NCBI GenBank assembly: GCA_903813345.2
Contig: CAIIXF020000012.1
Location: 19,909,520-19,973,519, forward strand
Direction of reading: 5' to 3'
Length of the DNA stretch: 64,000 nucleotides
Source: Owenia fusiformis
Taxonomy: Eukaryota > Annelida > Polychaeta > Sabellida > Oweniidae
Shown here: positions 22,440 through 62,640 of the stretch, piece by piece
Layout of the letters: each line of letters begins with the position of its first letter
How positions within the stretch are numbered: the stretch's first letter is position 1
Position numbers and translations under genes: made by a program
The notes under the pieces: generated by a model
Told to the model about the DNA's origin: nothing
Database searches by the model: none
What the model saw: the letters and a program-made list of their open reading frames with translations, nothing else

Positions 22440-22448
22440 GTTATTTTC

Positions 22449-22525: not shown

Positions 22526-22741
22526 GTTATTTTCAACATCCGACCAAATTTGCCTCCAGCCCATTGCTCATTTATTTCACAAAACACTGGGGTTTTGACC
22601 ACCAATCTCTTCTTGATCTGGCCATTGGAAAAACTGTTAATTCTCTCCGTTATCAACTTAACTTTCTCGTCTTCAACATCATGATCAGTTTCATCATAGT
22701 TCATTTTATTGAATGATATACCGGTTTCATCATATATATAT

Positions 22742-24128: not shown

Positions 24129-24339
24129 AGGCCCGCAGCCAGAGGGGAACCTGGGGGAGCGGAAGCTCCCCCTGGCCAAAAATTCTTTCAAAATCATGCA
24201 GTTTTTCACCATTCTGAGAATTTTTCGCATGATTTTTAGCCAAAATTGTGAAAAATTAGTACCGTGGGTACTGGGCTCACATGGTGACAGAAAAAACGGA
24301 TATAATTTTTTGCTGATTTTTTGTTAGAAAATTATTTCA

Positions 24340-32770: not shown

Positions 32771-33997
32771 TGTATAACTACTATGCTACCTAGGTAGTTA
32801 TTTGCTTCAATATAAAAGGGTAACATTTTTATGTAGGCATTTTCAAAACATGTTACTTTGCTTTAAAAACGTAACTTTATTGGACTTTCACATTATCCAC
32901 AAAGAATGGATGAGTTTTTATGTAAGCATTTTCAAGTTTAATGTTCATGTTATTTTAATGTTTATGTAATTGAAACGTAGTATAAATAGAACGCAACATT
33001 CACACTAGCATGCATTTAATGTCTAGCGTCGTGAAATTCGAACGTGATTAGGGACCATTTGGGAAATATGATATATTTGGAACTGATACCAGACGCTTAA
33101 AACTGATGCGTACTAGCATTCGATTACAACAATTTCTCGGCGGTGTTCATTGGTCAATCTCAACAGACCACCTTACGTCTGATCACGTGGTTAGATCCTA
33201 TGAGTATTTATTATACAAATAAGAACAAAGGAATTTTCGAAGTTGAAAAATGTCGATACGTAAAAACGAAAATAACACAGTATATCATAAATATTGCTAT
33301 TATTTGCCGTTGTTGTAGACAAAATGAATGAGAAGAGCCCGGATTATTATGCCAGCATGGATAATGTGGAGCTAATGTGACCAGGGCATAACAAGTCTCT
33401 AAAAGCATGCAGTGGCTCCAGATGAGGAAAACTAAAGAATAGGTAAAAATACAAAATACAAAAAGTACGAATGGTGGTGCCATGCAGCACACGACAATGT
33501 CGTTTTAGTAAACCTGATAGCAGGTAATTGGCAACTTCATGAAAAGCTGAAATCTAAGAAAAATCAATCAAAATGGCCACCTTTTAAATTTTTCCAAATT
33601 TTTCAATAACACTGGATTTCCATTGACCACTTACTAGGTTTACTTAGAAGACAATGTAATGATACTTTCCTGAAATAAGCAAGAAAATACACACATGTCT
33701 TCATACTTTATTTTGTTCCAGAGAATAGCATGGGCAAAAATGGAAAAATAACCTTATTTGTATGGGTATCAGAAAGTCTTTTATGGTCTCTGGGAAGAAA
33801 ATTACCCCCAACAGGAAATAAAAAAACATGTGGATTTTAAAAGTTTTTGAGAAAACAAGAGTTCTGCTTTGAACTTCAGTCCCATATAACATTTACCAAT
33901 GTCAGGATCACAATGGTCATGGTCAAAATGACCCTTACCATGCTGAAATATCTCGAAAAAGGTTAAAAGTTTTAATAGGTTAAAAAGTTTTAAACTC
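32771..33997. other. Spacer left of the tandem array
   Basis: No gene is seen. 33885-33950 (CAGGATCACAATGGTCATGG, AATGACCCTTACCATG) is a fragment related to the foldback element at 15749-16546. The open frame at 33211-33492 (minus strand) is hydrophobic but has no recognisable motif. Confidence 0.45.
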
Positions 33998-34013
33998 CGT
34001 TCTTCCTACAGTC

Positions 34014-37000
34014 AGAGTTACATCTGCCCAAGCAGTTAGAAAAAACAAAAATCGAGTTGACTTGATGATATAAATCTTGAACCGGGAGGGGTACAAGGCT
34101 AGTATGTATCCAACAGACTGACTAGAAGTCAGTCTGTTATGATGTACTACTTTCCTATGGAAATTGCAGTGAATTTTTTTGCACAAAATTATCAATTGGA
34201 GGAACAATTTCTTCAATAAAATAAATATTACAAAATTTCAATTAAATAGCAAGGTACAATTAAATGCAATAAAAAGTAACACAACATATTGTCAAGTGGA
34301 AATAAAGCTATAGTTGAAGTAACAAATGTGAAAATTAATTTTACCCAATCGGCCATTTTGAATAGCACTTCCTATGTAAACAAATATTAAGAATTATCAA
34401 ACTTTAACATAGGTGCCTTATTGTCTGAATATAATTCAGACTAAATAGGATATAGTCTAGAGTCCATTTCACTGCTTCATTTCGTCAGTAGAACGGCAAA
34501 AATAAGAAATTGGGAGACCATTGTGCAATAATATATGGAAAAGTATATTCATAATGTACATGAATGACATTTGTATATCTTGGATTGCTTCTAGTTTGGC
34601 TTATAAAGTGCGTGGCCTCTTATATTTGGATGTTTCTCTGCCATGTTATTTTCAATAAGATTAACATGGCTGAAATTCTTCAAATTACAAGACGGCACAG
34701 GCTTATTGCACAAAAAACTAAAAAATCTGAAATATACAAATGTCATTCATGTACATTATGAATATACTTTTCCATATATTATTGCACAATGGTCTCCCAA
34801 TTTCTTATTTTTGCCGTTCTACTGACGAAATGAAGCAGTGAAATGGACTCTAGGTACAAGGCTATGTCAGATTTACTAGAGTCAATGAAAGGAATGTCTT
34901 GGCATTCCCTCCCCCGCTTGTATTGGAAGTGACTCGACCAAGTTGCATCCTTGTATTTTTCATTTTCTTATCTTGTATTTTTCAGGTACAACTATGAGAG
35001 AGATGCAGCAAACACACCAACTTAGGGCGACAGCTGGTTCAGTCTTTCGACAACTTTGAGCCATCAGGTCCAGTCCACGTAAACAGTATCATGGGCGAGA
35101 GGTGTTCGTGTTCCTGTCACCAAAGCACCAAAGTAAGTACATTTTTTTTATTCAATTATTACATCAGTTTAGTTCCTCTGTTTTCAGGTTCCCTTTCAGC
35201 TTGGAGATGAGGAGCCCGATGACCAACGACACAACCGAGACAACAGCTGCGTTCCTGCGTTCCTGCTACCTAAGTTAAGTATTCCTTCCTGGTTTTGCAT
35301 AGGGATGGGGGGCGCCTCCCAGTTTGATATTTACTTGTGGACTTTTGTTGGCCGACCCATATTTTTGGTGGAGAAACTTGGACTCTAAGGTAAAGTGGGA
35401 GGGGGGTGGTTGGGTTTCCGGGGGGATAGAGTTCATGTTTCAAAATCAAAAATATGGAAGTCTACTGGTTTATATCAAATTGGGAGAAATAAATTTTATC
35501 TTTTGTAATATTCTGTAAATTTTTAGTAGTGTAGTGTAAAGTATAGTGTAAAGTTTTATTTAAAGTTTTTATGTAAAGTTTTATGTAAGATAACAACTAC
35601 TCCTACAACATGTTTTATCTATTTGTAGCACAGATGGTGAAGTCCCTGCGAAAAGACGGTCCTGTTGGAATCACATTTTTTCCACGATGGGACTAGGTCA
35701 AGTTTCCAGGACTTACAGTAGATGTCGCATTTTCACCAGTTTTATCTCTTGCAATCAGTTGCATCCCATTAGAAGGGGGGGGGGGAACTCCCAGTACTAT
35801 TCCAGTTTTCCTGCGGAATGACAGTCCTGTTGAAATCACATTTGTCTCCATTAGGGGACTAGGTTGAGTTTCAAGGGATTACCGTACATGTCGCTCTGAC
35901 CAGTTTTTATCTCTTGCAATCAATTGCATCCCATTAGCAGGGGGGGGGGGACTCCCAGTTCTCTTCCAGTTTTCCTGCGGAAAGACAGTCCTGTTGAAAT
36001 CACATTTGTCTCCATTAGGGGACTAGGTTGAGTTTCAAGGACTTACCGTAGATGTCGCTTTTGACCAGTTTTCATCTCTTGCAATCAGTTGCATCCCATT
36101 AGCAGGGGGGGGGGGAACTCCCAGTACTATTCCAGTTTTCGTGCGGAAGGACGGTCCTGTTGAAATCACATTTGTCTCCATTAGGGGACTAGGTTGAGTT
36201 TCAAGGACCTACCGTACATGTCGCTCTGACCAGTTTTTATCTCTTGCAATCAATTGCATCCCATTAGCAGGGGGGGGGACTCCCAGTACTCTTCCAGTTT
36301 TCCTGCGGAAAGACAGTCCTGTTGAAATCACATTTGTCTCCATTAGGGGACTAGGTTGAGTTTCAAGGACTTACAGTATATGTCGCATTTTGACCAGTAT
36401 TATCTCTTGCAATCAGTTGCATCCCATTAGCAGGGGGGGGGGGAACTCCCAGTAGTTTTTCAGTTTTCCTGCAGAAAGACAGTCCTGTTGAAATCACATT
36501 TGTCTCCATTAGGAGACTAGGTTGAGTTTCAAGGACTTACTGTAGATGTCGCTTTTGACCAGTTTTTATCTCTTGCAATCAGTTGCATCCCATTAGCAGG
36601 GGGCTGCTCCCAGTACTATTCTAGTTTTTCTTGGGGAGAAGTCAAACAACAAGACAACCAACCAGACAACCAACCAACCAACTTACCGAACATCCAACCG
36701 ACCAACCAATGACCCAATAGGCTTAATCTATTAACTAACTTACTTACTAACCAACCAACTAACCAACCAGACAACCACCAGACCACCCAATAGGTTAAAA
36801 CTAACCAACCAACTAACTAATTAATCAACAAACTAATCAACACTCCATCCAACGAACCAAACAACCAACGAACCAGACAAGCAACGAACCAGACAAGCAA
36901 CGAACCAGATGACCAAGATCATGGATCTAGTGCTTAGTATTGTATTGTATTGTATTGTATTGTATTGTATTGTATAGTTTTGTATTGTTTTGTTTTGTAT

Positions 37001-37740
37001 TGTATTGTATTTCGTTGACCAGTACTTACTCAGTAATGATTCAATTTTAAAGTTGACTTCAAGTACTACTCCAGATCTAAATTTTGAAGGTCTGAAGTCT
37101 TGTGTTCATTTTAGCTACAGTTGTAGATTGAAGGGTCTTTTCTTTTGGGTTTTCATGTTAAAATTGTGGGCTTAGTTTCGGGGTTTCTTTCTTTTTAATT
37201 GAACCATCGCTGATCTTTTCCTTAAATGTACTTTCAGGTGCAGTCCTCTTGCCTTGGAGAGAACAGAAAGAACCGCAAAGGGAAAACCACAAAGGGAAAA
37301 CCACAGAGAATCTACAATTTGTGCTACCTACCTGCAGCATTTGTGATCTACATACCTCTTGCCTTGGAGAGAACAAAAAGAAACACAAAAGGAAAACCAC
37401 AGAGAATCTGCAATTTGTGCTACCTATCTGCAGCATTTATATCTACATACCATCTTGTTAAAGGTACTGTAACACATAATCAGTTCTATCATTTGATGAT
37501 TTTGCTCTCTGGTTCAGTACAGTTATTCCACAACGACACATTTTTCAATTGTTGGGATTCTAATCCGATTGTTGGCACATGTATGTTTGGCAAACATTTT
37601 TTCAAAGAAATACACTAAAAGAGGACTGCCTTGATTTCACTTAATGTACAGATGTACCATGAAGCCATGTTTCATTATTTTCACATGTGGTCTGTGTTCT
37701 TAAAGAATATACATATGCTCAACTATTCCATTCTTCCTAC
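34014..37740 (+). repeat. Array unit 1 (6 monomers, with insertion)
   Basis: Diverged edge copy. E1 carries small extra insertions and a 751-bp element (34102-34852). E2 has CCATCAGGTCCAGTCC, without the ATG found in units 2-8, like unit 9. Six monomers lie between 35640 and 36640. Confidence 0.92.
34102..34852. mobile_element. 751-bp insertion with 12-bp TSD and perfect 122-bp inverted repeat
   Basis: GGTACAAGGCTA is duplicated at 34090-34101 and 34853-34864, and the other array units show the uninterrupted site. 34457-34578 and 34732-34853 are exact reverse complements over 122 bp around a 153-bp loop, so a transcript would form a perfect long hairpin. A second, smaller hairpin near the left end has AACAGACTGAC arms (about 34111-34137). 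No coding capacity. A TSD this long without matching TIRs at both ends is unusual for DNA transposons. Confidence 0.92.
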
Positions 37741-37742
37741 AG

Positions 37743-40700
37743 AGTTACATCTGCCCAAGCAGTTAGTTGACTTGATGATATAAATCTTGAGCCAGGAGGG
37801 GTATAAGGCTATGACAGATTTACTAGAGTCAATGAAAGGAATGTCTTTGCATTCCCTCCTCCGCTTGTATTGGAAGTGACTCGACCAAGTTGCATCCTTG
37901 TATTTTTCATTTTCTTATCTTGTATCTTTCAGGTACAACTATGAGAGAGATGCAGCAAACACACCAAGTTAGGGCGATAGCTGGATCAGTCTTTCGACAA
38001 CTTTGAGCCATCATGTCCGGTCCACGTAAACAGTATCATGGGCGAGAGGTGTTCGTGTTCCTGTCACCAAAGCACCAAAGTAAGTACATTTTTTTTCTAT
38101 TCAATTATTACAACAGGTTAGTTCCTCTGTTTTCAGGTTCCCTTTCAGCTTGGAGATGAGGAGCCCGATGACCAACGACACAACCGAGACAACAGCTGCG
38201 TTCCTGCGTTCCTGCTACCTAAGTTAAGTATTCCTTCCTGGTTTTGCATAGGGATGGGGGGCGCCTCCCAGTTTGATATTTACTTGTGGACTTTTGTTGG
38301 CCGACCCATATTTTTGGTGGAGAAACTTGGACTCTAAGGTTAAGTGGGAGGGGGGTGGTTGGGTTTCCGGGGGGATAGAGTTCATGTTTCAAAATCAAAA
38401 ATATGGAAGTCTACTGGTTTATATCAAATTGGGAGAAATAAATTTTATCTTTTGTAATATTCTGTAAATTTTTAGTAGTGTAGTGTAAAGTATAGTGTAA
38501 AGTTTTATTTAAAGTTTTTATGTAAAGTTTTATGTAAGATAACAACTACTCCTACAACATGTTTTATCTATTTGTAGCACAGATGGTGAAGTCCCTGCGA
38601 AAAGACGGTCCTGTTGGAATCACATTTTTTCCACGATGGGACTAGGTCAAGTTTCCAGGACTTACAGTAGATGTCGCATTTTCACCAGTTTTATCTTTTG
38701 CAATCAGTTGCATCCCATTAGAAGGGGGGGGGGAACTCCCAGTACTATTCCAGTCTTCCTTCGGAATGACAGTCCTGTTGAAATCACATTTGTCTCCATT
38801 AGGGGACTAGGTTGAGTTTCAAGGACCTACCGTACATGTCGCTCTGACCAGTTTTTATCTCTTGCAATCAATTGCATCCCATTAGCAGGGGGGGGAACTC
38901 CCAGTACTCTACCAGTTTTCCTGCAGAAAGACAGTCCTGTTGAAATCACATTTGTCTCCATTAGGGGACTAGGTTGAGTTTCAAGGACTTACCGTAGATG
39001 TCGCTTTTGACCAGTTTTCATCTCTTGCAATCAGTTGCATCCCATTAGCAGGGGGGGACTCCCAGTACTATTCCAGTTTTCGTGCGGAAGGACGGTCCTG
39101 TTGAAATCACATTTGTCTCCATTAGGGGACTAGGTTGAGTTTCAAGGACCTACCGTACATGTCGCTCTGACCAGTTTTTATCTCTTGCAATCAATTGCAT
39201 CCCATTAGCAGGGGGGGGGACTCCCAGTACTCTTCCAGTTTTCCTGCGGAAAGACAGTCCTGTTGAAATCACATTTGTCTCCATTAGGGGACTAGGTTGA
39301 GTTTCAAGGACTTACTGTAGATGTCGCTTTTGACCAGTTTTCATCTCTTGCAATCAGTTGCATCCCATTAGCAGGGGGGGGGGACTCCCAGTACTATTCC
39401 AGTTTTCGTGCGGAAGGACGGTCCTGTTGAAATCACATTTGTCTCCATTAGGGGATTAGGTTGAGTTTCAAGGACCTACCGTACATGTCGCTCTGACCAG
39501 TTTTTATCTCTTGCAATCAATTGCATCCCATTAGCAGGGGGGGGGGGACTCCCAGTACTCTTCCAGTTTTCCTGCGGAAAGACAGTCCTGTTGAAATCAC
39601 ATTTGTCTCCATTAGGGGACTAGGTTGAGTTTCAAGGACTTACCATAGATGTCGCTTTTGACCAGTTTTCATCTCTTGCAATCAGTTGCATCCCATTAGC
39701 AGGGGGGGGACTCCCAGTACTATTCCAGTTTTCGTGCGGAAGGACGGTCCTGTTGAAATCACATTTGTCTCCATTAGGGGACTAGGTTGAGTTTCAAGGA
39801 CCTACCGTACATGTCGCTCTGACCAGTTTTTATCTCTTGCAATCAATTGCATCCCATTAGCAGGGGGGGGGGACTCCCAGTACTCTTCCAGTTTTCCTGC
39901 GGAAAGACAGTCCTGGTGAAATCACATTTGGTTCCATTAGGGGACTAGGTTGAGTTTCAAGGACTTACCGTAGATGTCGCTTTTGACCAGTTTTCATCTC
40001 TTGCAATCAGTTGCATCCCATTAGCAGGGGGGGGGGAACTCCCAGTACTATTCCAGTTTTCGTGCGGAAGGACGGTCCTGTTGAAATCACATTTGTCTCC
40101 ATTAGGGGACTAGGTTGAGTTTCAAGGACCTACCGTACATGTCGCTCTGACCAGTTTTTATCTCTTGCAATCAATTGCATCCCATTAGCAGGGGGGGGGG
40201 ACTCCCAGTACTCTTCCAGTTTTCCTGCGGAAAGACAGTCCTGTTGAAATCACATTTGTCTCCATTAGGGGACTAGGTTGAGTTTCAAGGACTTACAGTA
40301 TATGTCGCATTTTGACCAGTATTATCTCTTGCAATCAGTTGCATCCCATTAGCAGGGGGGGGGGGAACTCCCAGTAGTTTTTCAGTTTTCCTGCAGAAAG
40401 ACAGTCCTGTTTAAATCACATTTGTCTCCATTAGGAGACTAGGTTGAGTTTCAAGGACTTACTATAGATGTCGCTTTTGACCAGTTTTTATCTCTTGCAA
40501 TCAGTTGCATCCCATTAGCAGGGGGCTGCTCCCAGTACTATTCTAGTTTTTCTTGGGGGGAAGTCAAACAACCAGACAACCAACCAGACAACCAACCAAC
40601 CAACTTACCGAACATCCAACCGACCAACCAATGACCTAATAGGCTTAATCTATTAACTAACTTACTTACTAACCAACCAACTAACCAACCAGACAACCAC

Positions 40701-41370
40701 CAGACCACCCAATAGGTTAAAACTAACCAACCAACTAACTAATTAATCAACAAACTAATCAACACTCCATCCAACGAACCAAACAACCAACGAACCAGAC
40801 AAGCAACGAACCAGACAAGCAACGAACCAGATGACCAAGATCATGGATCTAGTGCTTAGTATTGTATTGTATTGTATTGTATTGTATTGTATTGTATAGT
40901 TTTGTATTGTTTTGTTTTGTATTGTATTGTATTTCGTTGACCAGTACTTACTCAGTAATGATTCAATTTTAAAGTTGACTTCAAGTACTACTCCAGATCT
41001 AAATTTTGAAGGTCTGAAGTCTTGTGTTCATTTTAGCTACAGTTGTAGATTGAAGGGTCTTTTCTTTTGGGTTTTCATGTTAAAATTGTGGGCTTAGTTT
41101 CGGGGTTTCTTTCTTTTTAATTGAACCATCGCTGATCTTTTCCTTAAATGTACTTTCAGGTGCAGTCCTCTTGCCTTGGAGAGAACAGAAAGAACCACAA
41201 AGGGAAAACCACAGAGAATCTACAATTTGTGCTACCTACCTGCAGCATTTGTGATCTACATACCTCTTGCCTTGGAGAGAACAAAAAGAAACACAAAAGG
41301 AAAACCACAGAGAATCTGCAATTTGTGCTACCTATCTGCAGCATTTATATCTACATACCATCTTGTTAAG
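37743..41370 (+). other. Exon-like blocks E1-E5 of unit 2, possible spliced non-coding transcript
   Basis: Acceptor CTTCCTACAG| opens E1 at 37743. TTGTATCTTTCAG| opens E2 (37933-38089), which closes at CCAAA|GTAAGT. TCTGTTTTCAG| opens E3 at 38137, with a possible donor at CTAA|GTTAAG (38222). CTATTTGTAG| opens E4 at 38578. TGTACTTTCAG| opens E5 (41160-41370), which closes at TTAAG|GTACTG. Joining E2 to E3 gives only a short peptide before a stop, and E5 contains a 95-bp internal duplication that shifts frame. I therefore favour a non-coding or decayed gene. No transcript evidence is available here. Confidence 0.45.
40556..40940 (+). repeat. CCAA-rich tract and TATTG pentamer of unit 2 (one in each unit)
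   Basis: AACCAACCAGACAACC-type low-complexity DNA of about 250 bp is followed by ATGGATCTAGTGCTTAG and then a TATTG pentanucleotide run, whose length differs between units. Equivalent tracts are at 36650, 43500, 46770, 49925, 53190, 56775, 59130 and 61580. Confidence 0.9.
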
Positions 41371-41647
41371 GTACTGTAACACATAATCAGTTCTATCATT
41401 TGATGATTTTGGTCTCTGGTTCAGTACAGTTATTCCACAACGACACATTTTTCAATTGTTGGGATTCTAATCCGATTGTTGGCACATGTATGTTTGGCAA
41501 ACATTTTTTCTAAGAAATACACTAAAAGAGGACTGCCTTGATTTCACTTAATGTACAGATGTACCATGAAGCCATGTTTCATTATTTTCACATGTGGTCT
41601 GTGTTCTTAAAGAATATACATATGCTCAACTATTCCATTCTTCCTAC

Positions 41648-44591
41648 AGAGTTACATCTGCCCAAGCAGTTAGTTGACTTGATGATATAAATCTTGAGCC
41701 AGGAGGGGTATAAGGCTATGACAGATTTACTAGAGTCAATGAAAGGAATGTCTTTGCATTCCCTCCTCCGCATGTATTGGAAGTGACTCGACCAAGTTGC
41801 ATCCTTGTATTTTTCATTTTCTTATCTTGTATCTTTCAGGTACAACTATGAGAGAGATGCAGCAAACACACCAAGTTAGGGCGATAGCTGGATCAGTCTT
41901 TCGACAACTTTGAGCCATCATGTCCGGTCCACGTAAACAGTATCATGGGCGAGAGGTGTTCGTGTTCCTGTCACCAAAGCACCAAAGTAAGTACATTTTT
42001 TTTTCTATTCAATTATTACAACAGGTTAGTTCCTCTGTTTTCAGGTTCCCTTTCAGCTTGGAGATGAGGAGCCCGATGACCAACGACACAACCGAGACAA
42101 CAGCTGCGTTCCTGTGTTCCTGCTACCTAAGTTAAGTATTCCTTCCTGGTTTTGCATAGGGATGGGGGGCGCCTCCCAGTTTGATATTTACTTGTGGACT
42201 TTTGTTGGCCGACCCATATTTTTGGTGGAGAAACTTGAACTCTAAGGTAAAGTGGGAGGGGGGTGGTTGGGTTTCCGGGGGGATAGAGTTCATGTTTCAA
42301 AATCAAAAATATGGAAGTCTACTGGTTTATATCAAATTGGGAGAAATAAATTTTATCTTTCGTAATATTCTGTAAATTTTTAGTAGTGTAGTGTAAAGTA
42401 TAGTGTAAAGTTTTATTTAAAGTTTTTATGTAAAGTTTTATGTAAGATAACAACTACTCCTACAACATGTTTTATCTATTTGTAGCTCAGATGGTGAAGT
42501 CCCTGCGAAAAGACGGTCCTGTTGGAATCACATTTTTTCCACGAGGGGACTAGGTCAAGTTTCCAGGACTTACAGTAGATGTCGCATTTTCACCAGTTTT
42601 ATCTCTTGCAATCAGTTGCATCCCATTAGAAGGGGGGGGGGGGAACTCCCAGTACTATTCCAGTTTTCCTGCGGAATGACAGTCCTGTTGAAATCACATT
42701 TGTCTCCATTAGGGGACTAGGTTGAGTTTCAAGGACCTACCGTACATGTCGCTCTGACCAGTTTTTATCTCTTGCAATCAATTGCATCCCATTAGCAGGG
42801 GGGGACTCCCAGTACTCTACCAGTTTTCCTGCAGAAAGACAGTCCTGTTGAAATCACATTTGTCTCCATTAGGGGACTAGGTTGAGTTTCAAGGACTTAC
42901 CGTAGATGTCGCTTTTGACCAGTTTTCATCTCTTGCAATCAGTTGCATCCCATTAGCAGGGGGGGGGGACTCCCAGTACTATTCCAGTTTTGGTGCGGAA
43001 GGACGGTCCTGTTAAAATCACATTTGTCTCCATTAGGGGACTAGGTTGAGTTTCAAGGACCTACCGTACATGTCGCTCTGACCAGTTTTTATCTCTTGCA
43101 ATCAATTGCATCCCATTAGCAGGGGGGGACTCCCAGTACTCTTCCAGTTTTCCTGCGGAAAGACAGTCCTGTTGAAATCACATTTGTCTCCATTAGGGGA
43201 CTAGGTTGAGTTTCAAGGACTTACAGTATATGTCGCATTTTGACCAGTATTATCTCTTGCAATCAGTTGCATCCCATTAGCAGGGGGGGGGGGGAACTCC
43301 CAGTAGTTTTTCAGTTTTCCTGCAGAAAGACAGTCCTGTTGAAATCACATTTGTCTCCATTAGGAGACTAGGTTGAGTTTCAAGGACTTACTGTAGATGT
43401 CGCTTTTGACCAGTTTTTATCTCTTGCAATCAGTTGCATCCCATTAGCAGGGGGCTGCTCCCAGTACTATTCTAGTTTTTCTTGGGGGGAAGTCAAACAA
43501 CCAGACAACCAACCAGACAACCAACCAACCAACTTACCGAACATCCAACCGACCAACCAATGACCCAATAGGCTTAATCTATTAACTAACTTACTTACTA
43601 ACCAACCAACTAACCAACCAGACAACCACCAGACCACCCAATAGGTTAAAACTAACCAACCAACTAACTAATTAATCAACAAACTAATCAACACTCCATC
43701 CAACGAACCAAACAACCAACGAACCAGACAAGCAACGAACCAGACAAGCAACGAACCAGATGACCAAGATCATGGATCTAGTGCTTAGTATTGTATTGTA
43801 TTGTATTGTATTGTATTGTATTGTATAGTTTTGTATTGTTTTGTTTTGTATTGTATTGTATTTCGTTGACCAGTACTTACTCAGTAATGATTCAATTTTA
43901 AAGTTGACTTCAAGTACTACTCCAGATCTAAATTTTGAAGGTCTGAAGTCTTGTGTTCATTTTAGCTACAGTTGTAGATTGAAGGGTCTTTTCTTTTGGG
44001 TTTTCATGTTAAAATTGTGGGCTTATTTTCGGGGTTTCTTTCTTTTTAATTGAACCATCGCTGATCTTTTCCTTAAATGTACTTTCAGGTGCAGTCCTCT
44101 TGCCTTGGAGAGAACAGAAAGAACCACAAAGGGAAAACCACAAAGGGAAAACCACAGAGAATCTACAATTTGTGCTACCTACCTGCAGCATTTGTGATCT
44201 ACATACCTCTTGCCTTGGAGAGAACAAAAAGAAACACAAAAGGAAAACCACAGAGAATCTGCAATTTGTGCTACCTATCTGCAGCATTTATATCTACATA
44301 CCATCTTGTTAAAGGTACTGTAACACATAATCAGTTCTATCATTTGATGATTTTGCTCTCTGGTTCAGTACAGTTATTCCACAACGACACATTTTTCAAT
44401 TGTTGGGATTCTAATCCGATTGTTGGCACATGTATGTTTGGCAAACATTTTTTCTAAGAAATACACTAAAAGAGGACTGCCTTGATTTCACTTAATGTAC
44501 AGATGTACCATGAAGCCATGTTTCATTATTTTCACATGTGGTCTGTGTTCTTAAAGAATATACATATGCTCAACTATTCCATTCTTCCTAC
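41648..44591 (+). repeat. Array unit 3 (6 monomers)
   Basis: Six monomers at 42500-43480. E5 carries the 14-bp duplication. Confidence 0.94.
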
Positions 44592-47500: not shown

Positions 47501-47836
47501 GAATCTGCAATTTGTGCTACCTATCTGCAGCATTTATATCTACATACCATCTTGTTAAGGTACTGTAACACATAATCAGTTCTATCATTTGATGATTTTG
47601 CTCTCTGGTTCAGTACAGTTATTCCACAACGACACATTTTTCAATTGTTGGGATTCTAATCCGATTGTTGGCACATGTATGTTTGGCAAACATTTTTTCT
47701 AAGAAATACACTAAAAGAGGACTGCCTTGATTTCACTTAATGTACAGATGTACCATGAAGCCATGTTTCATTATTTCCACATGTGGTCTGTGTTCTTAAA
47801 GAATATACATATGCTCCACTATTCCATTCTTCCTAC
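44592..47836 (+). repeat. Array unit 4 (8 monomers)
   Basis: Eight monomers at 45440-46730. E5 lacks the 14-bp duplication, as in unit 2. Confidence 0.94.
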
Positions 47837-50800: not shown

Positions 50801-51024
50801 GTACAGTTATTCCACAACGACACATTTTTCAATTGTTGGGATTCTAATCCGATTGTTGGCACATGTATGTTTGGCAAACATTTTTTCTAAGAAATACACT
50901 AAAAGAGGACTGCCTTGATTTCACTTAATGTACAGATGTACCATGAAGCCATGTTTCATTATTTTCACATGTGGTCTGTGTTCTTAAAGAATATACATAT
51001 GCTCAACTATTCCATTCTTCCTAC
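47837..51024 (+). repeat. Array unit 5 (8 monomers, last one deleted internally)
   Basis: Eight monomers at 48690-49890; the eighth has lost about 95 bp between GTTGAAATCA and GTTGCATCCC, probably through the shared ATCA/GTTG words. Confidence 0.94.
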
Positions 51025-54000
51025 AGAGTTACATCTGCCCAAGCAGTTAGTTGACTTGATGATATAAATCTTGAGCCAGGAGGGGTATAAGGCTATGACA
51101 GATTTACTAGAGTCAATGAAAGGAATGTCTTTGCATTCCCTCCTCCGCTTGTATTGGAAGTGACTCGACCAAGTTGCATCCTTGTATTTTTCATTTTCTT
51201 ATCTTGTATCTTTCAGGTACAACTATGAGTGAGATGCAGCAAACACACCAAGTTAGGGCGATAGCTGGATCAGTCTTTCGACAACTTTGAGCCATCATGT
51301 CCGGTCCACGTAAACAGTATCATGGGCGAGAGGTGTTCGTGTTCCTGTCACCAAAGCACCAAAGTAAGTACATTTTTTTTTCTATTCAATTATTACAACA
51401 GGTTAGTTCCTCTGTTTTCAGGTTCCCTTTCAGCTTGGAGATGAGGAGCCCGATGACCAACGACACAACAGCTGCGTTCCTGCGTTCCTGCTACCTAAGT
51501 TAAGTATTCCTTATTGGTTTTGCATAGGGATGGGGGGCGCCTCCCAGTTTGATATTTACTTGTGGACTTTTGTTGGCCGACCCATATTTTTGGTGGAGAA
51601 ACTTGGACTCTAAGGTAAAGTGGGAGGGGGGTGGTTGGGTTTCCGGGGGGATAGAGTTCATGTTTCAAAATCAAAAATATGGAAGTCTACTGGTTTATAT
51701 CAAATTGGGAGAAATAAATTTTATCTTTTGTAATATTCTGTAAATTTTTAGTAGTGTAGTGTAAAGTATAGTGTAAAGTTTTATTTAAAGTTTTTATGTA
51801 AAGTTTTATGTAAGATAACAACTACTCCTACAACATGTTTTATCTATTTGTAGCACAGATGGTGAAGTCCCTGCGAAAAGACGGTCCTGTTGGAATCACA
51901 TTTTTTCCACGATGGGACTAGGTCAAGTTTCCAGGACTTACAGTAGATGTCGCATTTTCACCAGTTTTATCTCTTGCAATCAGTTGCATCCCATTAGAAG
52001 GGGGGGGGAACTCCCAGTACTATTCCAGTTTTCCTGCGGAATGACAGTCCTGTTGAAATCACATTTGTCTCCATTAGGGGACTAGGTTGAGTTTAAAGGA
52101 CCTACCGTACATGTCGCTCTGACCAGTTTTTATCTCTTGCAATCAATTGCATCCCATTAGCAGGGGGGGGACTCCCAGTACTCTACCAGTTTTCCTGCAG
52201 AAAGACAGTCCTGTTGAAATCACATTTGTCTCCATTAGGGGACTAGGTTGAGTTTCAAGGACTTACCGTAGATGTCGCTTTTGACCAGTTTTCATCTCTT
52301 GCAATCAGTTGCATCCCATTAGCAGGGGGGACTCCCAGTACTATTCCAGTTTTCGTGCGGAAGGACGGTCCTGTTGAAATCACATTTGTCTCCATTAGGG
52401 GACTAGGTTGAGTTTCAAGGACCTACCGTACATGTCGCTCTGACCAGTTTTTATCTCTTGCAATCAATTGCATCCCATTAGCAGGGGGGGGGGGACTCCC
52501 AGTACTCTTCCAGTTTTCCTGCGGAAAGACAGTCCTGTTGAAATCACATTTGTCTCCATTAGGGGACTAGGTTGAGTTTCAAGGACTTACCGTAGATGTC
52601 GCTTTTGACCAGTTTTCATCTCTTGCAATCAGTTGCATCCCATTAGCAGGGGGGGGGGAACTCCCAGTACTATTCCAGTTTTCGTGCGGAAGGACGGTCC
52701 TGTTGAAATCACATTTGTCTCCATTAGGGGACTAGGTTGAGTTTCAAGGACCTACCGTACATGTCGCTCTGACCAGTTTTTATCTCTTGCAATCAATTGC
52801 ATCCCATTAGCAGGGGGGGGGGGGACTCCCAGTACTCTTCCAGTTTTCCTGCGGAAAGACAGTCCTGTTGAAATCACATTTGTCTCCATTAGGGGACTAG
52901 GTTGAGTTTCAAGGACTTACAGTATATGTCGCATTTTGACCAGTATTATCTCTTGCAATCAGTTGCATCCCATTAGCAGGGGGGGGGGAACTCCCAGTAG
53001 TTTTTCAGTTTTCCTGCAGAAAGGCAGTCCTGTTGAAATCACATTTGTCTCCATTAGGAGACCAGGTTGAGTTTCAAGGACTTACTGTAGATGTCGCTTT
53101 TGACCAGTTTTTATCTCTTGCAATCAGTTGCATCCCATTAGCAGGGGGCTGCTCCCAGTACTATTCTAGTTTTTCTTGGGGGGCAGTCAAACAACCAGAC
53201 AACCAACCAGACAACCAACCAACCAACTTACCGAACATCCAACCGACCAACCAATGACCCAATAGGCTTAATCTATTAACTAACTTACTTACTAACCAAC
53301 CAACTAACCAACCAGACAACCACCAGACCACCCAATAGGTTAAAACTAACCAACCAACTAACTAATTAATCAACAAACTAATCAACACTCCATCCAACGA
53401 ACCAAACAACCAACGAACCAGACAAGCAACGAACCAGACAAGCAACGAACCAGATGACCAAGATCATGGATCTAGTGCTTAGTATTGTATTGTATTGTAT
53501 TGTATTGTATTGTATTGTATAGTTTTGTATTATTTTGTTTTGTATTGTATTGTATTTCGTTGACCAGTACTTACTCAGTAATGATTCAATTTTAAAGTTG
53601 ACTTCAAGTACTACTCCAGATCTAAATTTTGAAGGTCTGAAGTCTTGTGTTCATTTTAGCTACAGTTGTAGATTGAAGGGTCTTTTCTTTTGGGTTTTCA
53701 TGTTAAAATTGTGGGCTTAGTTTCGGGGTTTCTTTCTTTTTAATTGAACCATCGCTGATCTTTTCCTTAAATGTACTTTCAGGTGCAGTCCTCTTGCCTT
53801 GGAGAGAACAGAAAGAACCACAAAGGGAAAACCACAAAGGGAAAACCACAGAGAATCTACAATTTGTGCTACCTACCTGCAGCATTTGTGATCTACATAC
53901 CTCTTGCCTTGGAGAGAACAAAAAGAAACACAAAAGGAAAACCACAGAGAATCTGCAATTTGTGCTACCTATCTGCAGCATTTATATCTACATACCATCT

Positions 54001-54284
54001 TGTTAAGGTACTGTAACACATAATCAGTTCTATCATTTGATGATTTTGCTCTCTGGTTCAGTACAGTTATTCCACAACGACACATTTTTCAATTGTTGGG
54101 ATTCTAATCCGATTGTTGGCACATGTATGTTTGGCAAACATTTTTTCTAAGAAATACACTAAAAGAGGACTGCCTTGATTTCACTTAATGTACAGATGTA
54201 CCATGAAGCCATGTTTCATTATTTTCACATGTGGTCTGTGTTCTTAAAGAATATACATATGCTCAACTATTCCATTCTTCCTAC
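51025..54284 (+). repeat. Array unit 6 (8 monomers)
   Basis: Eight monomers at 51870-53150. E3 lacks the ACCGAGACA segment present in most other units. Confidence 0.94.
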
Positions 54285-57200
54285 AGAGTTACATCTGCCC
54301 AAGCAGTTAGTTGACTTGATGATATAAATCTTGAGCCAGGAGGGGTATAAGGCTATGACAGATTTACTAGAGTCAATGAAAGGAATGTCTTTGCATTCCC
54401 TCCTCCGCTTGTATTGGAAGTGACTCGACCAAGTTGCATCCTTGTATTTTTCATTTTCTTATCTTGTATCTTTCAGGTACAACTATGAGAGAGATGCAGC
54501 AAACACACCAAGTTAGGGCGATAGCTGGATCAGTCTTTCGACAACTTTGAGCCATCATGTCCGGTCCACGTAAACAGTATCATGGGCGAGAGGTGTTCGT
54601 GTTCCTGTCACCAAAGCACCAAAGTAAGTACATTTTTTTTTCTATTCAATTATTACAACAGGTTAGTTCCTCTGTTTTCAGGTTCCCTTTCAGCTTGGAG
54701 AAGAGGAGCCCGATGACCAACGACACAACCGAGACAACAGCTGTCTTGCGTTCCTGCTACCTAAGTTAAGTATTCCTTCCATGTTTTGCATAGGGATGGG
54801 GGGCGCCTCCCAGTTTGATATTTACTTGTGGACTTTTGTTGGCCGACCCATATTTTTGGTGGAGAAACTTGGACTCTAAGGTAAAGTGGGAGGGGGGTGG
54901 TTGGGTTTCCGGGGGGATAGAGTTCATGTTTCAAAATCAAAAATATGGAAGTCTACTGGTTTATATCAAATTGGGAGAAATAAATTTTATCTTTTGTAAT
55001 ATTCTGTAAATTTTTAGTAGTGTAGTGTAAAGTATAGTGTAAAGTTTTATTTAAAGTTTTTATGTAAAGTTTTATGTAAGATAACAACTACTCCTACAAC
55101 ATGTTTTATCTATTTGTAGCTCAGATGGTGAAGTCCCTGCGAAAAGACGGTCCTGTTGGAATCACATTTTTTCCACGAGGGGACTAGGTCAAGTTTCCAG
55201 GACTTACAGTAGATGTCGCATTTTCACCAGTTTTATCTCTTGCAATCAGTTGCATCCCATTAGAAGGGGGGGGGGAACTCCCAGTACTATTCCAGTTTTC
55301 CTGCGGAATGACAGTCCTGTTGAAATCACATTTGTCTCCATTAGGGGACTAGGTTGAGTTTCAAGGACCTACCGTACATGTCGCTCTGACCAGTTTTTAT
55401 CTCTTGCAATCAATTGCATCCCATTAGCAGGGGGGGGGACTCCCAGTACTCTACCAGTTTTCCTGCAGAAAGACAGTCCTGTTGAAATCACATTTGTCTC
55501 CATTAGGGGACTAGGTTGAGTTTCAAGGACTTACCGTAGATGTCGCTTTTGACCAGTTTTCATCTCTTGCAATCAGTTGCATCCCATTAGCAGGGGGGGA
55601 CTCCCAGTACTATTCCAGTTTTCGTGCGGAAGGACGGTCCTGTTGAAATCACATTTGTCTCCATTAGGGGACTAGGTTGAGTTTCAAGGACCTACCGTAC
55701 ATGTCGCTCTGACCAGTTTTTATCTCTTGCAATCAATTGCATCCCATTAGCAGGGGGGGACTCCCAGTACTCTACCAGTTTTCCTGCAGAAAGACAGTCC
55801 TGTTGAAATCACATTTGTCTCCATTAGGGGACTAGGTTGAGTTTCAAGGACTTACCGTAGATGTCGCTTTTGACCAGTTTTCATCTCTTGCAATCAGTTG
55901 CATCCCATTAGCAGGGGGGGGGACTCCCAGTACTATTCCAGTTTACGTGCGGAAGGACGGTCCTGTTGAAATCACATTTGTCTCCATAGGGGACTAGGTT
56001 GAGTTTCAAGGACCTACCGTACATGTCGCTCTGACCAGTTTTTATCTCTTGCAATCAATTGCATCCCATTAGCAGGGGGGGGGACTCCCAGTACTCTTCC
56101 AGTTTTCCTGCGGAAAGACAGTCCTGTTGAAATCACATTTGTCTCCATTAGGGGACTAGGTTGAGTTTCAAGGACTTACCGTAGATGTCGCTTTTGACCA
56201 GTTTTCATCTCTTGCAATCAGTTGCATCCCATTAGCAGGGGGGGGGGAACTCCCAGTACTATTCCAGTTTTCGTGCGGAAGGACGGTCCTGTTGAAATCA
56301 CATTTGTCTCCATTAGGGGACTAGGTTGAGTTTCAAGGACCTACCGTACATGTCGCTCTGACCAGTTTTTATCTCTTGCAATCAATTGCATCCCATTAGC
56401 AGGGGGGGGGGACTCCCAGTACTCTTCCAGTTTTCCTGCGGAAAGACAGTCCTGTTGAAATCACATTTGTCTCCATTAGGGGACTAGGTTGAGTTTCAAG
56501 GACTTACAGTATATGTCGCATTTTGACCAGTATTATCTCTTGCAATCAGTTGAATCCCATTAGCAGGGGGGGGGACTCCCAGTAGTTTTTCAGTTTTCCT
56601 GCAGAAAGACAGTCCTGTTGAAATCACATTTGTCTCCATTAGGAGACTAGGTTGAGTTTCAAGGACTTACTGTAGATGTCGCTTTTGACCAGTTTTTATC
56701 TCTTGCAATCAGTTGCATCCCATTAGCAGGGGGCTGCTCCCAGTACTATTCTAGTTTTTCTTGGGGGGAAGTCAAACAACCAGACAACCAACCAGACAAC
56801 CAACCAACCAACTTACCGAACATCCAACCGACCAACCAATGACCCAATAGGCTTAATCTATTAACTAACTTACTTACTAACCAACCAACTAACCAACCAG
56901 ACAACCACCAGACCACCCAATAGGTTAAAACTAACCAACCAACTAACTAATTAATCAACAAACTAATCAACACTCCATCCAACGAACCAAACAACCAACG
57001 AACCAGACAAGCAACGAACCAGACAAGCAACGAACCAGATGACCAAGATCATGGATCTAGTGCTTAGTATTGTATTGTATTGTATTGTATTGTTTTGTAT
57101 TGTATTGTATTTCGTTGACCAGTACTTACTCAGTAATGATTCAATTTTAAAGTTGACTTCAAGTACTACTCCAGATCTAAATTTTGAAGGTCTGAAGTCT

Positions 57201-57840
57201 TGTGTTCATTTTAGCTACAGTTGTAGATTGAAGGGTCTTTTCTTTTGGGTTTTCATGTTAAAATTGTGGGCTTAGTTTCGGGGTTTCTTTCTTTTTAATT
57301 GAACCATCGCTGATCTTTTCCTTAAATGTACTTTCAGGTGCAGTCCTCTTGCCTTGGAGAGAACAGAAAGAACCACAAAGGGAAAACCACAAAGGGAAAA
57401 CCACAGAGAATCTACAATTTGTGCTACCTACCTGCAGCATTTGTGATCTACATACCTCTTGCCTTGGAGAGAACAAAAAGAAACACAAAAGGAAAACCAC
57501 AGAGAATCTGCAATTTGTGCTACCTATCTGCAGCATTTATATCTACATACCATCTTGTTAAAGGTACTGTAACACATAATCAGTTCTATCATTTGATGAT
57601 TTTGCTCTCTGGTTCAGTACAGTTATTCCACAACGACACATTTTTCAATTGTTGGGATTCTAATCCGATTGTTGGCACATGTATGTTTGGCAAACATTTT
57701 TTCTAAGAAATACACTAAAAGAGGACTGCCTTGATTTCACTTAATGTACAGATGTACCATGAAGCCATGTTTCATTATTTTCACATGTGGTCTGTGTTCT
57801 TAAAGAATATACATATGCTCAACTATTCCATTCTTCCTAC
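54285..57840 (+). repeat. Array unit 7 (10 monomers)
   Basis: Ten monomers at 55130-56750. E3 reads GAGAAGAGGAG instead of GAGATGAGGAG and has a small deletion near its end. Confidence 0.94.
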
Positions 57841-60251
57841 AGAGTTACATCTGCCCAAGCCGTTAGTTGACTTGATGATATAAATCTTGAGCCAGGAGTG
57901 GTATAAGGCTATGACAGATTTACTAGAGTCAATGAAAGGAATGTCTTTGCATTCCCTCCTCCGCTTGTATTGGAAGTGACTCGACCAAGTTGCATCCTTG
58001 TATTTTTCATTTTCTTATCTTGTATCTTTCAGGTACAACTATGAGAGAGATGCAGCAAACACACCAAGTTAGGGCGATAGCTGGATCAGTCTTTCGACAA
58101 CTTTGAGCCATCATGTCCGGTCCACGTAAACAGTATCATGGGCGAGAGGTGTTCGTGTTCCTGTCACCAAAGCACCAAAGTAAGTACATTTTTTTTCTAT
58201 TCAATTATTACAACAGGTTAGTTCCTCTGTTTTCAGGTTCCCTTTCAGCTTGGAGATGAGGAGCCCGATGACCAACGACACAACCGAGACAACAGCTGCG
58301 TTCCTGCGTTCCTGCTACCTAAGTTAAGTATTCCTTCCTGGTTTTGCATAGGGATGGGGGGCGCCTCCCAGTTTGATATTTACTTGTGGACTTTTGTTGG
58401 CCGACCCATATTTTTGGTGGAGAAACTTGGACTCTAAGGTAAAGTGGGAGGGGGGTGGTTGGGTTTCCGGGGGGATAGAGTTCATGTTTCAAAATCAAAA
58501 ATATGGAAGTCTACTGGTTTATATCAAATTTAACTTTTGTAATATTCTGTAAATTTTTAGTGTAGTGTAAAGTATACTGTAAAGTTTTATTTAAAGTTTT
58601 TATGTAAAGTTTTATGTAAAATAACAACTACTACAACATGTTTTTATCTATTTGTAGCACAGATGGTGAATCCCTGCGAAAAGACGGTCCTGTTGAAATC
58701 ACATTTTTCTCCACGAGGGTCGAGTTTCCAGGACTTACCGTAGATGTTGCATTTTGACCAGTTTTATCTCTTGCAATCAGTTGCATCCCATTAGCAGGGG
58801 GCTACTCCCAGTACTATTTCAGTTCTACTTTTAATGGGGGAGGCCTCAAGTCACTTCACTTTTTTAGTTTGAGCTGTGGTCTTATAGATTTTAGCTTGGG
58901 TTGCTTAATTCAAGTTTTTTGGGAAGGTATTCACTCCATAGTCTGTGTGTGGTGGGGGGCTACTTCCAGTACCGTTCCAGTTTAATTTCATGGGGGGTCT
59001 CAAGTCACCTTTTTATTGAGTTGGATTTGATGGAGCGATGTGGGTCTTTTGATTGTGGACGTGGTTATAATTGAAGTTTTTGGGAAGTCATCACTCCAGT
59101 TAATTTTTCTTGGGGGGGGGGTGTCAAACAACCACACAACCAACCAACCTACCTGACATCCAACCGACCAACCAATGACCCAATAGGCTTAATCTAATCA
59201 ACCAACTTACTTACTAACCAACCAACTAACCAACCAGACAACCACCAGACCACCCAATAGGTTAAAACTAACCAACCAATTAACTAATTAATCAACCAAC
59301 TAACCAACACTCCACCCAACAAACCAAACAACCAACGACCCAGACAACCAACGAACCAGATGACCAAGATCATGGATCTAGTGCTTAGTATTGTATTGTA
59401 TTGAATTGTATTGTATAGTTTTGTATTGTATTGTTTTGTATTGTATTTCATTGACCAATACTTACTCAGTAATGATTCAATTTTAAAGTTCACTTCAAGT
59501 ACTACTCCAGATCTAAATTTTGAAGGTCTGAAGTCTTGTGTTCATTTTAGCTACAGTTGTAGATTGAAGAGTCTTTTCTTTTGGGTTTTCATGCTAAAAT
59601 TGTGGGCTTAGTTTCGGGGTTTTCTTTCTTTTTAATTGAACCATCGCTGATCTTTTCCTTAAATGTACTTTCAGGTGCAGTCTTTTTGCCTTGGAGAGAA
59701 CAAAAAGAACCACAAATGGAAAACCACAGAGAATCTACAATTGGTGGTACCTACATGTATCTGCAGCATTTGTATCTACATACCTCTTTCCTTGGAGAGA
59801 ACAAAAAGAAACACGAAAGGAAAACCACAGAGAATCTACAATTTGTGCTACCTATCTGCAGCATTTATATCTACATACCATCTTGTTAAAGGTACTGTAC
59901 ACATAATCAGTTCTATCATTTGATGATTTTGCTCTCTGGTTCAGTACAGTTATTCAACAACGACACATTTTTCACTTGTTGGGATTCTAATCCCTTTGCT
60001 GGCACATGTATGTTTGGCAAACATTTTTTCTAAGAAATACACCAAATGATGACTGCCTTGATTTCACTTAATGTACAAATGTACCATGAAGCCATGTTTC
60101 ATTATTTTCACATGTGGTCTGTGATAGTTGCCTGAATCATTCCTACCTCACATTGGGCCAAATCAAGATGGCAACTGCTTTGAAAAACGAAACACCACAT
60201 TTCAATTTTCTTAAAGAATATACATATACTCCACTATTCCATTCTTCCTAC
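57841..60251 (+). repeat. Array unit 8 (1 monomer, unexpanded middle)
   Basis: E2 is like units 2-7, including the ATG, but E4 is followed by one monomer only and then by single-copy sequence (CTACTCCCAGTACTATTTC, then GTATTCACTCCATAGTC, GTGTGTGGTGGGGGGC) shared with unit 9. It also has an insertion of about 85 bp before the next unit (near 60125-60210). Confidence 0.93.
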
Positions 60252-62640
60252 AGAGTTACATCTGCCCAAGCAGTTAGTTGACTTGATGATGTAAATCGTG
60301 AGCCGGGGGGCGGGGGGTACAAGGCTATGACAGATTTACTAGAGTCAATGAGAGGAATGTCTTGGTATTCCCTCCTCCACTTGTATTGTAAGTGACTCGA
60401 CCAAGTTGCATCCTTGTATTTTTCATTTTCTTATCTTGTATCTTTCAGGTACAACTATGAGAGAGATGCAGCGGACACACCAAGTTAGGGCGACAGCTGG
60501 ATCAGTCTTTCGACAACTTTGAGCCATCAGGTCCAGTCCACATAAACAGTATCATGGGCGAGAGGTGTTCGTGTTCCTGTCACCAAAGCACCAAAGTAAG
60601 TACATTTTTTTTATTCAATTATTACATCAGTTTAGTTCCTCTGTCTTCAGGTTCACTTTCAGCTTGGAGATGAGGAGCCCGATGACCAAGACACAACGGA
60701 GACAACAGCTGCGTGCCAACTAGGACTACAACCGACGTTCCTGCTACCTAAGTTAAGTATTCCTTCCTGGTTTTGCATAGGGATAGGGGGGCGCCTCCCA
60801 GTTTGATATTTACTCGTGGACTTTTGTTGGCCGACCCATATTTCTGGTGGAGAAACTTGGACTCTAAGGTAAAGTGGGAGGGTGGGTGGTTGGGTTTCCG
60901 GGGGGGATAGAGTTCATGTTTCAAAATCAGAAATATGGAAGTCTACTGGTTTATATCAAATTGGGAGAAATAAATTTTAACTTTTGTAATATTCGGTAAA
61001 TTTTTAGTGTAGTGTAAAGTATAATGTAAAGTTTTATTTAAAGTTTTTATGTAAGGTTTTATGTAAAATAACAACTACTACAACATGTTTTTATCTATTT
61101 GTAGCACAGATGGTGAATCCCTGCGAAAAGACGGTCCTGTTGAAATCACATTTTTCTCCACGAGGGTCGAGTTTCCAGGACTTACCGTAGATGTTGCATT
61201 TTGACCAGTTTTATCTCTTGCAATCAGTTGCATCCCATTAGCAGGGGGCTACTCCCAGTACTATTTCAGTTCTACTTTTAATGGGGGAGGCCTCAAGTCA
61301 CTTCACTTTTTTAGTTTGAGCTGTGGTCTTATAGATTTTAGCTTGGGTTGCTTAATTCAAGTTTTTGGGAAGGTATTCACTCCATAGTCTGTGTGTGGTG
61401 GGGGGCTACTTCCAGTACCGTTCCAGTTTAATTTCATGGGGGGGGGTCTCAAGTCACCTTTTTATTGAGTTGGATTTGATGGAGCGATGTGGGTCTTTTG
61501 ATTGTGGACGTGGTTGTTTAATTGAAGTTTTTGGGAAGTCATCACTCCAGTTAATTTTTCTTGGGGGGGGGGGTGTCAAACAACAAGACAGCCAACCAAC
61601 CTACCTGACATCCAACCGACCAACCAATGACCCAATAGGCTTAATCTAATCAACCAACTTACTTACTAACCGACCAACTAACCAACCAGACAACCACCAG
61701 ACCACCCAATAGGTTAAAACTAACCAACCAATTAACTAAATAATCAACCAACTAACCAACACTCCACCCAACGAACCAAACAACCAACGAACCAGACAAC
61801 CAACGAACCAGATGACCAAGATCATGGATCTAGTGCTTAGTATTGTATTGTATTGAATTGTATTGTATTGTATAGTTTTGTATTGTTTTGTATTGTATTG
61901 TATTTCGTTGACCAATACTTACTCAGTAATGATTCAATTTTAAAGTTGACTTCAAGTACTACTCCAGATCTAAATTGTGAAGGTCTGAAGTCTTGTGTTC
62001 ATTTTAGCTACAGTTGTAGATTGAAGGGTCTTTTCTTTTGGGTTTTCATGTTAAAATTGTGGGCTTAGGTTCGGGGTTTTCTTTCTTTTTAATTGAACCA
62101 TCGCTGATCCTTTCCTTAAATGTACTTTCAGGTGCAGTCTTTTTGCCTTGGAGAGAACAAAAATAACCACAAATGGAAAACCACAGAGAATCTACAATTG
62201 GTGCTACCTACATGTATCTGCAGCATTTGTATCTACATACCTCTTGCCTTGGAGAGAACAAAAAGAAACACAAAAGGAAAACCACAGAGAATCTACAATT
62301 TGTGCTACCTATCTGCCCGCCTATCTGCAGCATTTATATCTACATACCATCTTGTTAAAGGTACTGTAACACATAATCAGTTCTATCATTTGAAGATTTT
62401 GGTCTCTGGTTCAGTACGATTATTACACAATGACACGTTTTTCAATTGTTGAGATTCTAATTCCATTGTTGGCACATGTATGTTTGGCAAACATTTTTTC
62501 TAAGAAATACACTAATAAATGATGACTGCCTTGATTTCACTTAATGTTCAAATGTACCATGAAGCCATGTTTCATTTCTTCACATGTGGTCTGTCATGCT
62601 TGGTTGAATCATTCCTACTGCACACTTGGCACTAGGATTC
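60252..62640 (+). repeat. Array unit 9 (1 monomer, diverged edge copy)
   Basis: E2 has CCATCAGGTCCAGTCC as in unit 1, and the E2-E3 intron has the unit 1 form (TTACATCAGTTTAG). The middle is unexpanded as in unit 8. The unit decays into unrelated sequence after about 62640. Confidence 0.92.

Follow-up and report, generated by a model that had tools for sequence, protein, structure and literature searches.

Tandem repeats within long non-coding RNAs (lncRNAs) take several forms. In SNHG14, the host RNA of SNORD115/116, tandem units of exon plus intron lie within one long transcript, and hsr-omega and satellite III are repeat-rich long non-coding RNAs. The closest described case with which we compared is Firre, a lncRNA locus with many local repeats, among which R0 is intronic and RRD acts as a nuclear retention signal in the RNA; local repeats are defined in that study as lying within one locus and not elsewhere (PMC4820808). 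Here we report on a tandem array in the annelid Owenia fusiformis, contained in a stretch of 64,000 nucleotides that we call the window (C12:19909520-19973519, in a genome assembly of 498 Mb and 525 contigs). The array consists of nine gene-like modules preceded by a promoter-like block and followed by a terminal exon-like block, and similar loci occur elsewhere in the genome. Our preferred interpretation, to which we assign a probability of about 0.6, is that the array is a single transcription unit belonging to a multi-locus family of TATA-driven, spliced lncRNAs with an amplified and largely homogenised module.

The resemblance to Firre lies in a locus with many copies of a local repeat, but here one module recurs in about 40 loci on at least two chromosomes and is known from sequence alone. 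Firre does not fit as a family for this array, whose module is not confined to one locus: we found 341 copies of the core of the predicted exon E3 and at least 39 promoter loci. The array shares with SNHG14 the tandem exon-plus-intron units in one long (here predicted) transcript, but no Rfam small nucleolar RNA (snoRNA) was found in its module and it occupies many loci rather than one. Like hsr-omega and satellite III it would yield a repeat-rich long non-coding RNA, albeit from a multi-exon module rather than from a simple unspliced tail. Megasatellites and multicopy gene arrays under concerted evolution are likewise tandem, variable in copy number, homogeneous and most diverged in their last copies, but here each array tends to lie between a promoter block and a terminal block. 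A limited literature search returned no exact precedent for a many-locus family of spliced non-coding genes with tandem modules, although such a family may have been published.

Bracketed arrays at many loci

The claim of a nine-copy tandem unit, made in an earlier sequence-only reading of this DNA, was borne out. Nine modules follow each other head to tail on the plus strand between 34012 and 62360, spaced 2.4-3.9 kb apart, each beginning with the predicted exon E1 (Table 1). The E2 acceptor and donor, the E3, E4 and E5 acceptors and the E5 donor occur nine times each and in constant order, if one variable base is allowed in some of the strings. The splice-like strings quoted in that reading are also present: exact matches number nine for CTTCCTACAG, CTATTTGTAG, TGTACTTTCAG and CCAAAGTAAGT, eight for TCTGTTTTCAG, seven for TTGTATCTTTCAG and three for TTAAGGTACTG, the other E5 donors reading TTAAAG/GTACTG (a slash marks the predicted border). 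The modules differ in length mainly through a minisatellite of 163-bp units that follows the E4 acceptor, with 5.8, 12, 6, 8, 7.2, 8 and 10 copies in modules 1 to 7 and about one copy in modules 8 and 9; on the minus strand, its consensus (e.g. at 45445-46749) has a donor-like ACGGTAAGTCC. The whole feature is larger than had been proposed and extends from the promoter block at about 32955 to a 3' block past the end of the window, at about position 1500 of the adjoining stretch L001.

Genome-wide searches were made with short blocks, namely the promoter block, the E3 core and the terminal block. With 32955-33358 as promoter query, at least 44 matches were obtained, corresponding to at least 39 loci after merging; these are lower bounds, as 40 of 71 candidates were scored. 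The terminal query (63225-63345) gave 39 matches in 37 merged loci. Pieces less than 6 kb apart were merged, which joins C12:19669808 with C12:19673963 as well as two terminal blocks at C2:12.88 Mb. A plain satellite would lack gene-like brackets; here, 30 of the at least 39 promoter loci are accompanied by a terminal block no more than 60 kb away. This block lies downstream and on the same strand in 30 of 30 cases, at a distance of 7.8-33.4 kb. Between promoter and terminal block, one to nine E3 cores were found in the eight paired loci that were counted. Altogether the E3 core, with at most one mismatch, has 341 copies in the genome (164 forward, 177 reverse), compared to none for the reversed pattern used as control; the 100 of these 341 matches that were listed form 15 clusters of 1 to 15 cores (at least, for the last cluster) at 11.5-15.0 Mb of C2. 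The loci reside mainly on two chromosomes, at 11.5-18.2 Mb of C2 and 15.5-25.9 Mb of C12; further ones are located on C5, C11 and small contigs. One small locus on C5 is complete and comprises E0, two copies of E2-E3-E4-E5 and the terminal exon E5ter in about 8.3 kb. The sequence-only reading had left two alternatives, amplification of a gene by unequal crossing-over and a single, very long RNA whose many exons come from repeated modules; the constant order and strand of the brackets favour the second.

The promoter block contains what would be expected of a core promoter element in a lncRNA gene: the putative TATA box TATAAATA, which precedes a conserved ATTCACAC, is present in 22 of 25 aligned promoter blocks. 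The three blocks without it are those of L031, L063 and L064, and the blocks of L026, L043, L044 and L048 are outside the alignment; the L026 promoter, which lies before the array at C2:11.51 Mb, is more diverged and no TATA box was seen in it. Behind the second conserved part of E0, the predicted first exon, a donor-like ACAACG/GTAAGC is found in L043 and L048. In the stretches of a few kb that lie before the ~90-bp repeats, which themselves precede the promoter, the window and six other loci have only scattered short pieces in common, for example 98 bp shared in inverted orientation by the window and L026, and pieces shared by L026 and L031 or by L027 and L029. Since these flanks are so little alike, the loci are not apparent copies of one long segment.

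At the other end, E5ter is related to E5 and without a donor, while the E5 copies within the modules retain theirs. An unbroken terminal block of about 775-960 bp is present in five of nine loci (L021, L024, L033, L034 and L035). AATAAA occurs near positions 514-526 and again near 569-581 of this block in L021, L024, L034 and L035, and one or more times in the blocks of L023 and L033; it is absent from the first 1000 bases of the block in L022 and L025. The terminal blocks of L022, L025 and the window are broken by insertions. In the window's locus, E5ter is split by two of them, one at about 63438-63999 and the second outside the window, and AATAAA follows at positions 1382, 1426 and 1445 of L001, i.e. 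at the 3' end of the locus and also outside the window. The insertion at 63438-63999 has terminal inverted repeats (TTACTC(A/C)CGTCGAGAGCTAC... TTAGATTTTGAAAGTATAGCTC) and is a MITE-like element (miniature inverted-repeat transposable element); it also occurs at about 2040-2610 of L043.

Module homogeneity and splice borders in diverged relatives

Outside the minisatellite, the identity of the copy at 43700 is 96.6-99.7% with six copies, 98.3% with the part of copy 1 behind an insertion, and 89.6-92.5% with the last ones. Edge copies that are the most diverged are a usual mark of unequal exchange. Among nine copies, of which seven belong to six loci on C2 and the other two to the window (C12), a 348-bp intron-like stretch before the E4 acceptor is 97.9-100% identical in all 36 pairs when gaps are left uncounted; copies at C12 20.43 Mb agree at 97.8-98.3% over 1746 bp. 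The corresponding values, again without gaps, are 90.5-93.7% for the promoter/E0 block (six loci, 15 pairs) and 85.8-97.0% for the terminal block (four loci, six pairs). Across loci and chromosomes, identity is thus higher among the modules than among the blocks that surround them. The sequence-only reading had argued from the kept borders to function, and this argument does not hold: the modules are homogenised, and as even their intron-like part reaches 98-100% between chromosomes, any border inside the array would look kept. A block-wise test of conservation inside the array was dropped because of this homogeneity.

The strength of the splice sites was scored on the stretch 43880-45470 with a weight matrix of base frequencies at splice sites. 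On the plus strand, the claimed acceptors take ranks 1, 2, 3, 5 and 6 among 101 AGs, the E2 donor ranks first and the E5 donor eighth among 103 GTs. A donor-like AAG/GTAAAG at 45190 in module 4 ranks third, and for E3, to which the sequence-only reading had assigned no donor, the candidate CTACCTAA/GTTAAG takes a low rank of 53 among the 103 and has a counterpart among the relatives described below in L048 only. No donor and no acceptor on the plus strand exceeded the set thresholds, compared to one of each on the minus strand and 0.21 and 0.33, respectively, in shuffled sequences. By itself, splice-site strength is within chance expectation; as the top sites of the opposite strand are as strong or stronger, strength alone proves nothing.

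Evidence from outside the arrays comes from three distant relatives on C12, L043 (25.85 Mb), L044 (15.47 Mb) and L048/L049 (15.92 Mb), which have the promoter and no array in the stretch fetched. Their E0 blocks show 71-78% identity, and E2 shows 71-73% with gaps counted and 88-89% without. The E2 donor ACCAAA/GTAAGT is present in all three relatives and the E2 acceptor TTGTATCTTTCAG in two of them. In L043 and L044, part of E3 is recognisable as a stretch of about 50-57 bp at 88-91%. An E5-like exon with an identical E5 acceptor TGTACTTTCAG is present in L048. Judged by eye, and at a score that stays under the control maximum, L048 also has an exon resembling E3; it is about 625 bp long, contains internal repeats and runs from a TTTCTTTCAG acceptor to a donor CACCCAA/GTTAAGT. 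When 60-bp segments were compared, without requiring a matching order, the conserved ones fell on predicted exons in 10 of 14 cases for L048, 7 of 9 for L043 and 7 of 12 for L044, whereas predicted exons account for 23 of all 80 segments (Fisher p of 0.0003, 0.002 and 0.02, respectively; the relatives are akin and these tests are not independent). No E1 segment exceeded the control in the relatives apart from a single one in L044, which lies almost wholly in the E1-E2 intron. Across this divergence, the overall result for the splice borders is mixed: those of E2 are largely kept, as is the E5 acceptor in L048, E3 gives a divided picture, and no kept border was found for E1 or E4. Among the five exons put forward in the sequence-only reading, E2 is accordingly supported by three relatives, E3 partly by relatives and E5 by one relative, and E1 and E4 are without independent support.

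L048 and L049 joined also show repeats of their own at the place of E3 (about 4867-5491) and behind E5 (about 8687-9605), in 105-bp units containing CCTTGGAGAGAACAA, as in E5. It seems that different repeats have grown at matching places in L048/L049 and in the array.

Coding potential, small RNAs and neighbouring features

Modules of the B type, to which window module 9 and modules of L042 and L046 belong, differ from the other, A type modules by about a tenth. Comparison of the frames speaks against a coding role. In the A type, as read from the alignment, the frame that joins E2, E3 and E4 is broken by a TAG within E2 and by a shift of one base within E4. Of the E2 gaps against the three relatives, 1 of 12, 1 of 10 and 3 of 12 have a length divisible by three, stops occur in all nine E2 frames of these relatives, and 28 of 114 indels in E0 are multiples of three. 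The joined frame had no match in the PDB and no Pfam model above the cut-off; below it, the set searched gave DUF1652 (E 0.12) and, in another frame, the PT repeat (E 0.011). The coding interpretation of this frame, which spans 111 codons in the B type, was rejected because of the frame-breaking indels, and judging from its frames we conclude that the module is non-coding and keeps no reading frame.

Neither ARAGORN (for tRNAs) nor Rfam at gathering score returned any match in the 64-kb window. Six Rfam matches far below gathering score were obtained in 32500-37300, four within the insertion in module 1 and two between E0 and E1; the microRNA (miRNA) matches in 34102-34853 (MIR2646, mir-35 and others) look like chance. 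A host array for snoRNAs or miRNAs was rejected as a candidate, the Rfam scans having found no known small RNA in the introns at gathering score. A hairpin scan of 43700-46000 for segments below -18 kcal/mol gave no strong local hairpin (best z -3.0).

Table 1 Coordinates of the features in the window; modules are given from the start of E1 to the end of E5, and exon assignments are predictions.
Feature	Position	Strand	Remark
~90-bp upstream repeat	32825..32935	+	matches 79-86%; several copies before promoters in L028, L029, L030
Putative promoter and first part of E0	32955..33358	+	90.5-93.7% among six loci
Putative TATA box TATAAATA	32981..32988	+	in 22/25 aligned promoter blocks
Second conserved part of E0	33388..33497	+	putative exon end
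Module 1 (E1-E5)	34012..37463	+
Insertion in E1 of module 1	34102..34853	none	large internal inverted repeat; foreign to the gene
Module 2	37743..41371	+
Module 3	41650..44314	+
Module 4	44594..47560	+	E1 from 44594, E2 44784-44930, E3 from 44988, E4 from 45429, minisatellite 45445-46749, E5 47349-47560
Module 5	47839..50747	+
Module 6	51027..54008	+
Module 7	54287..57563	+
Module 8	57843..59891	+	without minisatellite expansion
Module 9 (B type)	60254..62360	+	E2 60449-60595, E3 60651-60751, E4 from 61105, E5 62132-62360
Putative terminal exon E5ter	63252..64000	+	E5-related, donor lost; homology ends beyond the window

Outside the array, the window contains further minisatellites at 24403-26742 (346-bp units), 7803-8438 (77/114-bp), 1944-2655 (146-bp) and 14751-15283 (135-bp). 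Remnants and long open reading frames (ORFs) on the minus strand at 22441-24323 of the window and at about 5451-7899 of L001 resemble, by eye, the reverse transcriptase of long interspersed nuclear elements (LINEs); a Pfam search of the LINE-like stretch 23327-24004 of the window gave no match. Searches for the COX1 and GFP families gave no match either; these are weak negatives, and for GFP the control was equally silent. In L003, exon-like ORFs on the minus strand at about 6538-6801 and 8616-8876 resemble malate dehydrogenase, judged by eye from a sequence motif.

Proposed transcript and competing explanations

At the level of sequence, the anatomy of the array, its bracketing, the copy numbers, the homogeneity and the lack of a kept reading frame are the firm part of this account, and promoter and E2 borders are kept in most comparisons. 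In the mechanism that we propose, RNA polymerase II would start at the TATA promoter and transcribe through the first exon E0, and the transcript would be spliced through n copies of the module, with E2 as a well supported exon, E3 and E5 as partly supported ones, and E1 and E4 unproved. The terminal exon would derive from an E5 that lost its donor, with polyadenylation behind E5ter, where poly(A) signals stand in several loci. The number of modules would grow and shrink by unequal exchange, and gene conversion or transfer of units may homogenise them across loci and chromosomes. The most likely product is a long non-coding RNA of n repeated modules. By analogy with the RRD of Firre, its repeated exons may bind one partner many times, so that it could act as a multivalent nuclear scaffold or retention RNA; this function is the least certain step, and we regard it as doubtful even if the RNA is made.

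Several observations weigh against this interpretation. For nine promoter loci, including L043, L044 and L045, no terminal block was found at a distance of up to 60 kb, and 7 of the 37 terminal loci have no promoter; L045 on C5 has a promoter and no module in 7 kb, and L040 on C457 has a terminal block and no module in the preceding 6.5 kb. The locus in the window has a degenerate-looking E0 donor, and E1 of its first module is interrupted by an insertion. E1 is without a match at the complete C5 locus and in the relatives, where all E4 segments stay under the control maximum; the E2 acceptor is lost in L048, and the E3 acceptor is altered in L043 and lost in L044. A piece conserved between the window and L048 (60770-60889) falls in the supposed intron after E3; it ends near AAG/GTAAAG, and E3 may be longer than assumed. 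Homogenisation is incomplete, as is evident from the difference between A and B type modules. Finally, the B type keeps the joined frame of E2, E3 and E4 open for 111 codons, and the difference between A and B in E3 (-1 and +16 in the alignment) restores that frame.

The array could instead be a silent megasatellite, in which an old spliced gene was caught in a spreading, selfish tandem array and promoter, exons and terminal block are fossils that were duplicated with it. Hundreds of homogeneous copies with minisatellite and simple repeats inside them, the insertions in E1 and in the terminal block of the window's copy, its degenerate E0 donor and the loci with a promoter or a terminal block alone all agree with such an origin. 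It does not account well for a TATA box kept in 22 of 25 promoter blocks, for an order and strand that hold in 30 of 30 paired loci, or for relatives at about 71-78% identity that keep the promoter and the E2 borders, and we consider it unlikely, albeit a serious contender. We think it rather improbable that the loci serve as a source of small RNAs such as PIWI-interacting RNAs (piRNAs), whereby promoter-driven, spliced single-strand precursors would be cut into small RNAs. The large number of long loci that run on one strand, have promoter-like blocks and cluster in two regions of chromosomes would suit it, as would their non-coding, fast-changing content, but there was neither an Rfam match at gathering score nor a strong hairpin in the one module scanned, results that are silent on piRNAs.

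Two further explanations appear very improbable to us. A gene with repeated exons that codes for protein, or did so recently, would explain the open 111 codons of the B type and the frame-preserving length difference of E3 between the types, but the TAG and the one-base shift of the A type, the indels in E0 and E2 that ignore the frame, and searches that gave no PDB match and Pfam models only below cut-off contradict it. It is about equally hard to regard every module as a separate gene with its own start and end: each module is a full repeat unit that has both acceptors and donors, but promoter and terminal blocks come once per array and not once per module, and E5 keeps its donor within the modules whereas E5ter has none.

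If the preferred interpretation of a spliced lncRNA family is correct, one may speculate further that the roughly 40 promoter-driven non-coding genes, most of them on two chromosomes, evolve together as a single system. The count of near-identical exon modules in each RNA (about 1-15) would then set the valency of an RNA scaffold for a chromosome region, and conversion between loci and chromosomes would keep the modules uniform; we put this forward as an improbable extension. If transcribed, the loci would constitute a natural series of RNA genes with common promoter and exons that differ in module number and lie at many places in the genome. They would then offer a direct test of whether the action of a lncRNA depends on how many copies of a repeated module it carries, i.e. 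on its valency, and of how loci scattered over the genome remain homogeneous internally as their promoters diverge.

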